NCBI RefSeq assembly: GCF_004664715.2
Contig: NC_051068.1
Location: 131,026,716 to 131,090,715, forward strand
Direction: 5' to 3'
Length of the DNA: 64,000 nt
Origin: Peromyscus leucopus
Taxonomy: Eukaryota; Chordata; Mammalia; Rodentia; Cricetidae
Position 1 is the first letter of the stretch. The number at the start of each line of letters is the position of its first letter. Below the pieces are notes generated by a model that had not been told where the DNA came from, did not search any database, and saw only the letters and a program-made list of their open reading frames with translations. This document shows, piece by piece, positions 15,991-56,647 of the stretch. Made by a program: the position numbers and the translations under genes.

Positions 15991-18479
15991 AGCCTCCCTG
16001 GAGTTGTGAGTTGCAGTCTGATTATCTTTTGCTTTACATCTAATATCCACTCATGAGTGAGTACACACCATGTTTGCCTTTCTGAGTCTGGGTTACCTCA
16101 CTCAGGATGATTTTTTCTAGTTCCATCTATTTGCCTGCAAACCTCATGATGTCATTGTTTTTCTCTGCGGAGTAGGACTCCATTGTGTATATGTACCACA
16201 TTTTCTTTATCCATTCTTCAGTTGAAGAGCATCTAGGTTGTTTCCAGGTTCTGACTATTACAAATAATGCTGCTAAGAACATAGTTGAGCATGTATCCTT
16301 GTAGTATGTTTGAGCATTCTTTGGGTATATGCCCAAGAGTGGTATAGCTGTGTCTTAAGGGAGATTGATTCCCAATTTGCTAGGAAAGTGCCATCTTGAT
16401 TTCCAAAGTGGTTGTACAAGTTTGCATTCCTACCAACAATGTAGGAGTGTTTCCCTTTCTCCACATCCTCTCCAACATAAGCTATCTTCAGTGTTTTTGA
16501 TTTTAGCCATTCTGACAGGTGTAAGATGGTATCTTAGAATCATTTTTGATTTGCATTTCCCTAATGATTAAGGATGTTAAGCATGAAATGTCTTTCAGCC
16601 ATTTGAGCTTCTTCTGCTGAGAATTCTGTTTAGCTCTATAGCCCATTTTTTTTAATTGGACTGTTGGTTATTTTGATGTCTAATTTCTTGAGTTTTTATA
16701 TATTCTGGATATCAGCCCTCTGTCAGATGTGGGGTTGGTGAAGATCTTTTCCCATTCTGTAGGCTGTCATTTTGTCTTGTTGACCATGTCCTTAGCCCTA
16801 CAAAAGCTTCTCAGTTTTAAGGGGTCCCATTTATTAATTGTTTCTCTCAGTGTCTGTGCTACTGGTGTTATTTTTAGGAAGTGATCTCCGGTGCCAATGT
16901 GTTCAAGACTTCTTCCTACTTTCTCTTCTATCAGGCTATCAGGTTCAGAGTAACTGGATTTATGTTGAGGTCTTTGATCCACTTGGACTTAAGTTTTGTG
17001 CATGGTGACAGATATGGATCTATTTGCAGTCTTCTACAAGTTGACATCCAGTTATGCCAGCACCATTTGTTGAAGATGCTTTTTTTCCATGGTAGAGTTT
17101 TGGCTTCTTTGTCAAAAATTATATGTTCATAGGTGTGCAGATTAATGTCAGGGTGTTCAGTTTGGTTCCATTGGTACACATGTCAGTTTTTATGCCAGTA
17201 CCAAACTGTTATTTTATTACTGTAGCTCTATAGTAGAGCTTGAAGTCAGGGATCGTGATGCCTCCAGAGGTTGTTTTATTGTATAGGATTCTTTTGGCTA
17301 TCCTGAGTTTTTTTGTTTTTCCATATGAAGTTGAGTATTGTTCTTTCCGGGTCTGTGAAGAATTGTGTTGGTATTTTGATGGGGATTGCACTGAATCTGT
17401 AGATTGCTTTTGGTAAGATTGCCATTTTTACTATGTTAATCCTACCTATCCATGAGCATGGGAGATCTTTCCATTTTCTGACATCTTCTTCAATTTCTTT
17501 TTTCAGGAACTTAAAGTTATTGTCATACAGGTCCTTTGATTGCTTAGTTAGAGTTACTCCAAGGTATTTTATATAGGTTTTGGCTATTGTAAAGGGTGAT
17601 GTATCTCTGATTTCCTTCTCAGCCTGTTTATCATTTGTATATAGGAGAGCTACTGATTTTTTTTTAGTTAATCTTGTATCCTGCTACATTGCTGAAGGTG
17701 ATTATAAGCTGTATGAGTTCCTTGATCAAATTTTTGGGTCACTTATGTCATCTGCAAATAGTGAAATATCATGTCATCTGCATATTGAAAATTTGAATTC
17801 TTCCTTTCCAATTTGTATCCCCTTGATTTCCTTATGTTGTCTTATTTCTCTGGCTAGAACTTCAAGTACTATATTGATTAAGTATGGAGAGAGTGGACAA
17901 CCTTGCTTTGTTTCTGATTTTAGTGGAACCCTTTGAGTTTCTCTCCATTTACTTTCATGTTGCCTGTTGCCTTGCTGTAAATTGCCTTTATTATGTTTAG
18001 GTATGTTCCCTATATTCCTGATCCCTCCAGAACCTTTATCATGAAGGGGTGCTAGATTTTGTCAAAGACCTTTTCAGTATCTAGTAAGATGACAATGTGG
18101 TTTTCTTTCTTTCAGTTTGTTTATATGGTGTATTACATTGACAGACTTTCATAATTGAACCACCTCTGCATTCCTGGGATGAAGCCTGCTTGATCATGGT
18201 GGATAATTGTTTTGATGTGTTCTTGGAGTCTGTTTGGCAGTATTTCATTGAGTATTTTTGCATCAATGTTCATGAGGAAGATTGGCCTGTAGTTCTCTTT
18301 CTTTGTTGCATTTTTGTTTGGCTTGAGAATCAGGGTAATTGTAGCCTCATAGAAGGAGTTTGGTAATATTCCTTCTGTTTCTACTGTGTGGAGCACAATT
18401 TGAAGAGTATTGGTATTATCTCTTCTTTGAAGATCTGGTAGAATTCTGCATTGAATCCATCAGGTCATGGGCTTTTTTT

Positions 18480-18492
18480 TTTTTTTTTTTTT
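18480..18492. repeat. Poly-T run within L1 ORF2
   Basis: The homopolymer begins at 18473 and lies just before the LTR-tRNA insertion. It looks like an expanded T-rich stretch of the antisense ORF2. Confidence 0.7.
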
Positions 18493-18520
18493 GGTTGGGA
18501 AACTTTTAATGATTGTTATT

Positions 18521-18592
18521 GGCTAGCTCAGTCGGTAGAGCATGGGACTCTTAATCCCAGGGTTGTGGGTTTGTGCCCCACGTTGGGTGCCA
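18521..18592 (+). pseudogene. tRNA-Lys(CTT) copy, positions 5-76 including CCA
   Basis: This is an ungapped match to tRNA-Lys with anticodon CTT: D-arm ggctagctcagtcgg, anticodon loop ctcttaa and a 3' CCA (18,590-18,592). Four substitutions are seen. C48T, C56T and C72T are all at CpG. A58T is at 18,574, the position methylated to m1A in mature tRNA. The four bases before it (tatt) do not match GCCC. The encoded CCA and the LTR junction show it was copied from a mature tRNA. The changed T-loop (B box) makes it unlikely to be a working tRNA gene. Confidence 0.92.
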
Positions 18593-18594
18593 GA

Positions 18595-18915
18595 TATTCG
18601 TGAAATTATTTTGGCCACTCCACGTAGTTAAAAGTATATTTATTTAATAGCATAACTCACAAATTAAGTAATAGGTAGGTCGCAGGGTCTGGGGAAGGTG
18701 TATCACAGTCCAGCGGTGTTCTCTTGAGCTCTGCTCAGTCACTCTCCACCGTTCAGCATCCCAGCACAGAGAGAGCGCACTGAGAGAGCGCTGGCCCATC
18801 CAGCTCTCGGGTCTCCAGGCGCCTCCCATGGCCCCACCTTGTAGGTGTAACAGTTGCCAGAGTCTCAATGGGGGTTGTAACTTCCAGATCCAAGCTGGAA
18901 TGGCTACCCACTACA
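18595..18915 (-). repeat. LTR, TGTAGTGGG family (tRNA-Lys primed class II)
   Basis: It matches the LTRs at 35,209-35,527 and 56,343-56,647, which all start TGTAGTGGGTAGCCATTCC and end near ggccataataatttcac. A poly-A signal (tttatttaat in reverse) lies near 18,640. Confidence 0.9.
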
Positions 18916-19017
18916 GATTGTTTCTATTTCCTTAGGGGTTATTTGTCTATTTAAATAGTTTATCTGGTCTTGATTTAACTTAGGTATGTGGTACCTATCC
19001 AGAAAATTATCCATCTC

Positions 19018-19405
19018 TGTAAATAGAGTTTTCCTGCCTGGCCCACAGTCAGGACAAATCTCTGTCACCTGCCAGTCCCACAACCGATCAGACCCAACCA
19101 AGTAAATACAGAGACTTATATTGCTTACAAACTGTATGGCCATGACAGGCTTCTTGCTAACTGTTCTTATAGCTTAAATTAATCCATTTCCATAAATCTA
19201 TACCTTGCCATGTGGCTCCTGGCTTACCGACATCTTCACATGCTGCTTGTCATGGTGGTAGCTGGCAGTGAATTCCTTCCCCTTCCTGTTCCCTTAATTC
19301 TCCTCTCTGTTAGTCCCGCCTATACTTCCTGCCTGGCCACTGGCCAATCACTGTTTTATTTATTGACCAATCAGAGCAATTTGACCTACAGACCATCCCA
19401 CAGCA
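19018..19405 (-). repeat. 3' LTR of the short ERV
   Basis: On the minus strand it begins TGCTGTGGGATGGTCTGTAG and ends CTCTATTTACA. It contains CCAAT-type motifs (gaccaatcagagc and ggccaatcactg in the + reading). Confidence 0.92.
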
Positions 19406-35147: not shown

Positions 35148-35820
35148 GAAGGATATTTGATCATTCTGTAAACACCAAGATTAATCAAATAAAAACCTGA
35201 GGCCACGATGTAGTGGGTAGCCATTCCAGCTTGGATCTGGAAGTTCCAACCCCCAATGAAACTCTGGCAACTGTCACACCTACGAGGTGGGGCCAGGGGA
35301 GGCGCCTGGAGACCTGTGAGCTGGATGGGCCAGCCCTCTCTCTGTTTGCTCTCTGTGCTAGGACCCTGAGGCATGGAGGTGGACCGAGCAGTGCTCCAGA
35401 GAACACTGCTGGACTGCAATACAACTTTCCCAGACCCTGCGACCTACCTATCACTTAATTTGGGAGTTACACCATTAAATAAATATCATTTTAACTACGT
35501 GGAGTGGCCATAATAATTTCACCAATACCAGGAGGTGGAGACAGTCACTAGTAGACAAGAAGTAGCCATAGAGAGTAAAGAAGGAGTCGGGAAGATGGAT
35601 ACAGAAGTGCACAGGGAGTAGATGGGAGGGACTAAGAGTTTGACAGTCCCTTTTGGACTGGAATGGTGGGAAAGGACCTCTTACTGAGACACTGGTTAAG
35701 GAGGAAGGTCAGTGAGTTGCTTCTCAACCTCTGATCTAGCAGATTTTTACCCCAGCCTTTAACTCCTGAGTCTTTATTAGTAAAATCATAAGGTATAAAT
35801 TTAGATTAAAAAAAAATATT
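35148..35820 (+). mobile_element. Probable 5' LTR of ERV copy A, interrupted
   Basis: 35,148-35,208 (gatatttgatcattctgtaa, caaataaaaacctgaggcca) joins in sense to 35,534-35,820 once the LTR at 35,209-35,527 is removed. It ends directly before a weak primer-site-like tggcactcat at 35,821 and the ERV leader. The start is approximate. Confidence 0.5.
35209..35527 (+). mobile_element. Solo LTR, TGTAGTGGG family
   Basis: Same family as the LTR in the tRNA chimera. Near-identical flanks ccacga (35,203-35,208) and ccagga (35,528-35,533) suggest a 6-bp TSD with one mutation. Confidence 0.85.
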
Positions 35821-48179: not shown

Positions 48180-48679
48180 NNNNNNNNNNNNNNNNNNNNN
48201 NNNNNNNNNNNNNNNNNNNNNNNNNNNNNNNNNNNNNNNNNNNNNNNNNNNNNNNNNNNNNNNNNNNNNNNNNNNNNNNNNNNNNNNNNNNNNNNNNNNN
48301 NNNNNNNNNNNNNNNNNNNNNNNNNNNNNNNNNNNNNNNNNNNNNNNNNNNNNNNNNNNNNNNNNNNNNNNNNNNNNNNNNNNNNNNNNNNNNNNNNNNN
48401 NNNNNNNNNNNNNNNNNNNNNNNNNNNNNNNNNNNNNNNNNNNNNNNNNNNNNNNNNNNNNNNNNNNNNNNNNNNNNNNNNNNNNNNNNNNNNNNNNNNN
48501 NNNNNNNNNNNNNNNNNNNNNNNNNNNNNNNNNNNNNNNNNNNNNNNNNNNNNNNNNNNNNNNNNNNNNNNNNNNNNNNNNNNNNNNNNNNNNNNNNNNN
48601 NNNNNNNNNNNNNNNNNNNNNNNNNNNNNNNNNNNNNNNNNNNNNNNNNNNNNNNNNNNNNNNNNNNNNNNNNNNNNNN
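48180..48679. other. Assembly gap (500 N)
   Basis: A round 500-base N run, probably a placeholder of unknown true size, between two copies of the same ERV family. Confidence 0.99.
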
Positions 48680-56342: not shown

Positions 56343-56647
56343 TGTAGTGGGTAGCCATTCCAGCTTTGATCTGGAATTTCCAACCCCCATTGAGGCTTCG
56401 GTAACTGTCATGCCTACAAGGCAGAGCCAAGAGAGGACCCTGAAGACCTGAGATCCAGATGCGCTGGCTCTCTTGGTTCCTGGACACTAGACGCTGGAGG
56501 TAGACCAAGCAGAGTTCTCCAGAGAACACTGCTGGACTGTACTACACCTTTCCCAGACCCTGTTACCTATCCCTTCACTTGTAAGTTACCCCACAAAATA
56601 CACCTCCATTTTAACTACGTAGAGTGGCCTTTATAATTTCACCATTA
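56343..56647 (+). mobile_element. LTR, TGTAGTGGG family
   Basis: Third copy of this family in the window; it begins TGTAGTGGGTAGCCATTCC and ends near ttataatttcaccatta. No clear TSD is seen, and it replaces the expected end of copy D. Confidence 0.85.

Follow-up and report, generated by a model that had tools for sequence, protein, structure and literature searches.

The arrest of reverse transcription at 1-methyladenosine 58 (m1A58) of the primer tRNA is textbook retrovirology, known mainly from assays on human immunodeficiency virus (HIV). According to the accepted scheme, synthesis of plus-strand strong-stop DNA begins at the polypurine tract, proceeds through U3, R and U5 of the long terminal repeat (LTR) and 18 nt of primer sequence, and is arrested at m1A58 (PMC13191261). 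Departures from this scheme are already known. Unmodified tRNA is fully copied in vitro, and read-through takes place in TRMT6-mutant cells (PMC13191261). Colicelli and Goff, as reported in PMC12220202, found a tRNA-Gly lacking 4 nt between the LTRs of a cloned, unintegrated circle of Moloney murine leukemia virus (MMLV), and Gurgo and Franchini (2025) describe a tRNA-Gly copy lacking 5 nt beside one HIV provirus, with no direct repeats around the tRNA (PMC12220202). Here we analyze a 64,000-nt stretch of the Peromyscus leucopus genome (NC_051068.1, positions 131,026,716 to 131,090,715; hereafter the window), in which the LTR of an endogenous retrovirus (ERV) is followed by its primer-binding site (PBS) and by nearly all of a mature tRNA-Lys(CTT). 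Judged by sequence, the tRNA is located where a plus-strand strong-stop strand that had read through the primer would put it. A survey of such fusions across the genome makes it very probable that the ERV reverse transcriptase (RT) read through m1A58 with misincorporation, that the strand then jumped to another template, and that integrase inserted the chimera.

Results

An LTR and a mature tRNA within one target-site duplication

The insertion lies on the minus strand and runs from one copy of the target-site duplication (TSD), ACAATC, through the LTR (TGTAGTGGG...CACGAATA), the dinucleotide TC, the PBS, tRNA-Lys(CTT) in complement as far back as position 5, and AATA, to the second ACAATC. 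Its parts and the L1 flanks that host it are as follows.

18511 to 18516, no strand: left TSD copy GATTGT, identical to 18916-18921.
18517 to 18520, minus strand: TATT, the final 4 nt at the U5 end of the LTR (in LTR sense, AATA) and putative landing site of a template jump; the second LTR copy of the window ends in CCAATA, and sister copies have 8-21 nt of U5 here.
18521 to 18592, plus strand: tRNA-Lys(CTT) positions 5-76, ungapped, including the post-transcriptional CCA, in the G29-C41 version; the Rfam tRNA model (RF00005) matches 18524-18581 at 42.9 bits (gathering score 29).
18574, plus strand: tRNA position 58, which is m1A in mature tRNA-Lys, with T replacing A.
18575 to 18592, minus strand: PBS of 18 nt, the complement of tRNA positions 59-76.
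18593 to 18594, minus strand: two-base spacer between LTR end and PBS, TC in LTR sense and GA on the plus strand.
18595 to 18915, minus strand: complete LTR of 321 bp, TGTAGTGGG...GAATA, with two more copies in the window.
18916 to 18921, no strand: right TSD copy GATTGT, identical to 18511-18516.
18130 to 18510, minus strand: protein-matched part of the L1 open reading frame 2 (ORF2) flank; L1-like sequence extends further leftward.
18922 to 19026, minus strand: L1 ORF2 flank on the other side, in which the frame carries on over the joined site.

An earlier note on this DNA had recognized an LTR, a spacer, a PBS and ungapped tRNA-Lys(CTT) back to position 5 inside one duplication in an L1, and this is borne out by the sequence, by the Rfam match and by the L1 ORF2 reading frame, which is restored over the join when the insert is removed and one GATTGT is kept (L1 ORF2 chains in PDB, best E 2e-48). 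The duplication, which had been given as gattgt(t), is a perfect 6-bp TSD whose seventh base (T) matches too; the coordinates of its right copy are corrected here to 18916-18921. Across the window, 6-mer repeats at a fixed 400-base spacing occur at 41 of about 63,000 offsets. An assembly artefact at the junction, the concern raised with the original description, was ruled out: both TSD copies and the L1 frame agree, and no N is nearby.

LTR, PBS and contiguous tRNA complement with CCA follow one another in the layout of a read-through plus-strand strong-stop strand. The canonical strand would end after the 18-nt PBS, whereas this copy reaches tRNA position 5 and then continues into AATA. It is not arranged as a solo LTR, since 74 tRNA and spacer bases plus TATT separate the LTR from the left TSD, nor as an L1-type processed insertion, since no poly(A) stands at the insert end and the TSD does not exceed 6 bp. 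A tRNA gene beside an LTR was likewise rejected, the CCA being present and the PBS junction exact.

The TATT that occupies tRNA positions 1-4 is best explained, from its match to the LTR end, as the LTR's own U5 terminus and not as tRNA. Mutation of positions 1-4 in place was rejected: 4 of 4 bases mismatch beside 72 well-kept ones, and the U5 end fits better. The GG after TATT can be assigned to either the U5 end or the tRNA, and the U5 piece therefore measures 4 to 6 nt.

Over positions 5-76, compared with tRNA-Lys(CTT), the window copy carries the four substitutions that had been counted before, namely C-to-T changes at 48, 56 and 72, all at CpG sites, and A58T. Position 58 is thus the one changed site among 61 non-CpG sites.

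Base 58 is changed in most LTR-tRNA fusions

Similarity searching of the genome gave 5,180 candidates, of which 40 were scored; at all 40 main places, the window included, the tRNA was joined to the same LTR. Such a search undercounts repeats, and totals were therefore taken from an exact pattern (tRNA positions 49-76 plus the LTR end, with CpG sites degenerate and base 58 free). It matched 177 places, and a backward-pattern control matched 0, so the fusion is not the singular fossil it had been thought to be. A shorter pattern, consisting of the LTR end, two spacer bases and the 18-nt PBS, matched 468 places, made up of the 177 fusions and 291 without the read-through pattern; at least 38% of PBS-bearing LTR ends (177/468, a lower bound) thus carry read-through past base 58.

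A first set of 40 copies was chosen by likeness to the window, and a further 60 were taken in genome order from 100 listed of the 177 places, skipping those already among the 40. These 100 fetched copies were realigned together, and the alignment is the source of the base-58, tRNA-start, junction and tree figures. One copy, L036, carries a one-base deletion.

Over all 177 fusions, base 58 is T in 143 (by subtraction), G in 18, A in 16 and C in 0, and is hence other than A in 161 of 177. Among the 100 listed places the counts are T 76, A 13 and G 11; among the 100 fetched copies after realignment, T 76, A 14 and G 10. In the first 40 copies (T 32, G 5, A 3), a comparison over tRNA positions 13-76 with 29 and 41 excluded shows changes in 10 of 2,040 cells at other non-CpG sites and in 37 of 400 at CpG sites. 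The genome-order set, reduced from 60 to 59 by leaving out one copy with an insertion or deletion, gave the same picture: base 58 is changed in 48 of 59 (43 with T and 5 with G; the other 11 have A), whereas changed cells number 38 of 3,030 at other non-CpG sites and 83 of 597 at CpG sites (Fisher p 5e-71). Apart from base 58, the only non-CpG positions to stand out are 29 and 41, which for the most part vary together as A-T or G-C, a difference that distinguishes two tRNA-Lys isodecoders.

Position 58 is m1A in mature tRNA-Lys. The excess of T over G and the lack of C at this base resemble the m1A misincorporation signature when G follows, for which an "overall low C signal" was reported (PMC4787781). 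We infer from the base spectrum that A58 of the primer was methylated and, further, that the change at base 58 arose during reverse transcription. These counts uphold the part of the earlier note that saw synthesis past m1A58 recorded as a mutation, with 161 of 177 copies non-A and the rest of the tRNA nearly unchanged; the survey it had proposed, of LTRs followed by more than 18 nt of tRNA-Lys complement with base 58 and end points tabulated, also shows, in this genome, many starts at tRNA base 1. Published work finds that PBS mutations do not coincide with tRNA modification sites (PMC7472051), a result that fits with ours because the PBS ends before base 58.

The fusions point to mostly independent events

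Both 29/41 versions of the tRNA occur with changed and unchanged base 58. Among the 100 copies, the A-T version has 56 T, 8 G and 9 A at base 58 and the G-C version 14 T, 1 G and 4 A, with 8 copies mixed or incomplete. On a tree built from 91 LTRs of the 100 loci (9 were too short), base 58 changes state 21 times, as compared with a mean of 20.0 (range 16-21) after shuffling; the 29/41 version (84 tips) changes state 14 times against a shuffled mean of 14.0. As far as LTR sequences can tell, neither base 58 nor the 29/41 version gives any sign of inheritance along LTR lineages.

The junctions are similarly diverse. Of the 14-mers adjoining the tRNA start, 92 of 100 are distinct, and the repeats are accounted for by 8 poly(A) junctions and one pair. 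In 22 of the first 40 and 19 of the further 60 copies (20/40 and 18/59 by stricter scoring) the tRNA begins precisely at base 1, and the remainder start between 2 and 42. Two tRNA versions, scattered base-58 states and distinct junctions together point to mostly independent events, and the 92 distinct junctions argue against spread of a tRNA-derived short interspersed element (SINE) from one master.

Three copies, L007, L022 and L069, end in ccagagtgaa before tRNA base 1, and their base 58 is A, T and A, respectively. This shared sequence may mark an end at which strands preferentially stop, or a single event that was amplified.

Sequences adjoining the tRNA

An inverted piece of a same-family LTR is present on the far side of the tRNA in 23 of the 100 copies. 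Their TSDs are identical in 18 and differ by one mismatch in 1; the rest have 2, 4, 6 and 6 mismatches. Palindromic insertions that have perfect 6-bp TSDs and are bounded on either side by a U3 terminus of the LTR include L011, L012, L017, L031, L035, L037, L038 and L041, besides others. In these, integrase apparently used two U3 ends.

An LTR in the same direction was found in 10 of 100 copies, with TSDs identical in 5, one mismatch in 2 and no match in 3; the polypurine tract AAAAGGGGGAGA precedes the second LTR in 6 of them (L007, L008, L029, L030, L033 and L039). L039 holds two tRNA-LTR units in tandem, 443 bp apart and with an identical junction, and is probably a recombination product. 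Short U5 ends of 8, 21, 19 and 20 nt stand at the junction in L096, L026, L027 and L032, whose TSDs have 0, 0, 0 and 1 mismatches.

Other partners are not LTR ends. Poly(A) lies at the junction in 9 of 100 copies; in L035 and L101 it is preceded by the family's own U3-R, and in L019 the partner is a SINE that looks B2-like. A complete mature tRNA-Glu(CTC) with CCA, 75 nt long, adjoins the tRNA-Lys start in L031 (100%) and L074 (98.7%). Fragments of tRNA-Glu(CTC) are also present in L066 and L118. When the 5-kb flanks of 20 copies were searched for a far LTR end with a matching TSD, one perfect TSD (L023) and three shifted by one base (L015, L021 and L040) were found, and 16 copies had no match.

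End-to-end template jumping is the economical reading of these junctions because many partners are natural 3' ends, that is, poly(A), CCA and LTR ends. From the junctions we infer that the strand, on reaching the 5' end of the tRNA, jumps to 3' ends of other nucleic acids.

The element family and its surroundings

The 6-bp TSD (GATTGT, 6/6 in the window), the Lys PBS two bases after the LTR (468 places) and the polypurine tract before the 3' LTR are class II traits, and by these features the family is a putative member of the class II (betaretrovirus-like) ERVs. The mys/MysTR class II elements of New World rodents are possibly the same LTR family. The window holds two further LTRs of the family:

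35209 to 35527, plus strand: same-family LTR without PBS or tRNA, flanked by CCACGA and CCAGGA (5/6 match); it differs from the insertion's LTR at 39 of 317 aligned bases.
56343 to 56647, plus strand: more diverged LTR of the family without PBS or tRNA and with no recognizable duplication; it differs from the insertion's LTR at 66 of 300 aligned bases.

In this comparison the LTR bounds in the window were 1-2 bases off, which hardly affects the counts. A dispersed repeat at 19045-19390 adjoins the L1, and visual comparison suggests that L005 has a similar sequence directly beside its tRNA. The window contains a single run of N, an assembly gap of 500 bases at 48180-48679, far from the insertion.

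For tRNA-Lys3, the genome contains 2 CCA-bearing T-arm matches, one with A58 and one with T58. The latter (G000:C8:70994021-70994046) is perhaps the same phenomenon with another primer. With only 2 such matches for tRNA-Lys3, the read-through habit may be particular to this LTR family. In a phage collection and with four IMG/VR patterns no fusion was found; three contigs had the 18-mer by chance, without a tRNA extension.

Discussion

The course of events that best accounts for these copies would be as follows. The ERV RT would extend plus-strand strong-stop DNA into the primer tRNA-Lys and pass the base expected to carry m1A58, probably inserting a wrong base. The strand would run to or near the tRNA 5' end, a start at base 1 corresponding to run-off at the RNA 5' end, and would then likely jump to another template end. 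A jump to truncated minus strands would yield the same-direction copies, a jump to plus-sense RNA or DNA the inverted copies, and a jump onto the extreme U5 end the window copy, for which the likely landing site is the terminal 4 to 6 nt of U5 on the minus strand. Such a landing would restore the integrase-competent terminus AATA, which is why the window copy would have a precise duplication on both sides. The product would finally be inserted by the viral integrase, as implied by the TSDs and exact termini. Incomplete minus-strand DNA would have no PBS complement to receive the strong-stop strand, and this may be why the strand kept going.

The broader claim, which we regard as probable, is that one ERV family habitually passed m1A58 and then jumped onto 3' ends in the particle, leaving well over 100 largely independent, datable recordings that include palindromic proviruses with two U3 ends. 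The partners in this claim would be nucleic-acid ends of the virion: poly(A) RNAs, mature tRNA-Glu, strong-stop strands and truncated minus strands.

One competitor is the form in which the earlier note had put it: bare plus-strand strong-stop DNA, extended through the tRNA and integrated directly as a singular event. The window copy taken by itself invites this, consisting of one LTR and the tRNA with nothing else longer than 4 nt. We consider it unlikely. Under the accepted scheme the strong-stop DNA lacks both a free U3 end on the minus strand and a second end for integrase; the window copy terminates in AATA of the LTR beside its 6-bp TSD, where sister copies have longer U5 pieces; other sister strands run into different sequence before the far TSD; and there are 177 fusions to explain. 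Read-through of m1A58 is supported, and integration of the bare strand is not.

A variant tRNA-Lys gene with U58 or G58 would give an unmethylatable primer that is easily read through, its base then being copied faithfully. Precedent comes from A58U tRNA-Lys3, which inhibits HIV replication and has been used to disturb the normal plus-strand stop (PMC13191261, PMC3832253). The T58 tRNA-Lys gene in the same species that the earlier note had named as a counter-argument was not found among exact T-arm matches, a search of perfect matches that did not cover CC followed by a base other than A and could miss a diverged gene. Three exact T-arm matches are not followed by C, and all have A58; in the 1 match where C comes next and the base after it is not C, position 58 is indeed T, but this match is another LTR fusion with a damaged CCA. 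Variant genes would moreover be needed for two 29/41 versions and two different bases, and we regard this explanation as very unlikely.

To the same degree improbable is an origin in which complete linear DNA retained the primer at its right end, where the primer was copied, and LTR-LTR recombination then left a solo LTR with a tRNA tail. The tRNA-Gly copies in the MMLV circle, minus 4 nt, and beside the HIV provirus, minus 5 nt, are precedents of this kind (PMC12220202). Copying at the right end predicts neither of the arrangements seen here, in which the tRNA is internal, between the LTR and 3' sequence in same-direction copies or between two LTRs in inverted ones; a right-end tail collapsed to a solo LTR was dropped once copies with internal tRNA appeared.

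That T58 arose once, in a master element already carrying the tRNA extension, and spread by retrotransposition, with the various junctions made by later deletions, we hold to be highly unlikely. Some copies do look related: L007 and L022 have a common junction and flank, ten groups of copies have 50 nt or more of left sequence in common (one group of 26 being mostly the inverted LTR itself), and the tree count leaves room for many copies with an inherited T. A master would not account for two 29/41 versions, nor for the presence of three bases at 58 in a distribution over the LTR tree that looks shuffled, and deletion would not give the 41 of 100 copies that start exactly at tRNA base 1. Joining of tRNA and LTR RNA by the L1 machinery, which the insertion within an L1 and known L1 chimeras with other RNAs (PMC13174262) might suggest, is negligibly probable in view of the absent poly(A) tail at the insert end, the exact U3 terminus, the 6-bp duplications in 18 of 23 inverted copies, and an ordinary viral RNA 5' end having no U3 upstream of R.

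Several observations weigh against read-through with misincorporation and template jumping. A58 is kept in 16 of 177 tRNA-Lys copies and in both complete tRNA-Glu copies (2/2), the latter fitting only if tRNA-Glu was unmethylated or faithfully copied. In the reported data, wild-type HIV RT showed no misincorporation at untreated m1A and three other RTs only minimal A-to-T, whereas A-to-T was the main error, and high, at reduced m1A or with an evolved RT (PMC11019740); the T bias found here therefore needs an RT that behaves differently. A diverged T58 tRNA-Lys gene would escape the T-arm search, which took perfect matches. The shared junction of L007 and L022 means that a few copies may be inherited and not new, and the tree count is compatible with some or many T copies having inherited their T. 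TSDs do not match in 4 of 23 inverted and 3 of 10 same-direction copies; the script identified no far LTR end in 62 of the 100 fetched copies (the window copy not counted); 16 of 20 copies have no far LTR end with a matching TSD even in the 5-kb flanks; and for L015, L021 and L040 the TSDs agree over no more than 5 bp, and then shifted by one base. The chance probability of AATA at the end of the window copy is about 0.009.

On the reading that we favour, read-through followed by template jumping, the base-58 change is likely a hereditary trace of RT copying through a methylated base. The genome would then hold a natural record of failure at the m1A58 stop, giving its frequency (at least 177/468), the base inserted opposite the lesion and the later fate of the strand, and thereby a way to ask whether tRNA methylation existed in germ cells or virions long ago. 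Read-through into the tRNA need not be a dead end. As a practical warning, CCA-bearing tRNA "pseudogenes" beside LTRs are not tRNA genes.

The fusions may also supply real intermediates for a long-standing proposal in which strong-stop DNA of retroviruses gave rise to tRNA-derived repeats. A strong-stop-DNA model for the origin of tRNA-Lys SINEs was reportedly put forward by Ohshima, Okada and others in 1993. That model likewise has tRNA-Lys followed by retroviral U5, whereas the copies described here look like integrase products without a poly(A) tail. In PMC3747384 nothing on the strong-stop model was found. Searches of open-licence papers, judged by titles and abstract openings, turned up no report of genomic ERVs with tRNA beyond the PBS, of a germ-line population of such copies or of a base-58 record.

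Among the closest described systems, plus-strand strong-stop DNA of retroviruses, such as that of HIV-1 primed by tRNA-Lys3, has the same order of LTR, PBS and tRNA complement; the strand described here passes the usual stop. Read-through products of HIV-1 are known in vitro and from TRMT6-mutant cells (PMC13191261), whereas here they are integrated at 177 places with base 58 preserved. The m1A signature of RNA sequencing, in which A is read as T or G with little C when G or A follows (PMC4787781, PMC11019740), was obtained on laboratory cDNA; here it is read from old genomic copies. The tRNA-Gly copies of MMLV and HIV (PMC12220202) are likewise mature tRNAs with CCA beside an LTR end, with 4 or 5 nt missing at the 5' end, just as the window copy has no positions 1-4. 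Those cases, as reported, concern a non-cognate tRNA in single clones, whereas the fusions described here combine the cognate primer, proper TSDs, many copies and the base-58 signature.
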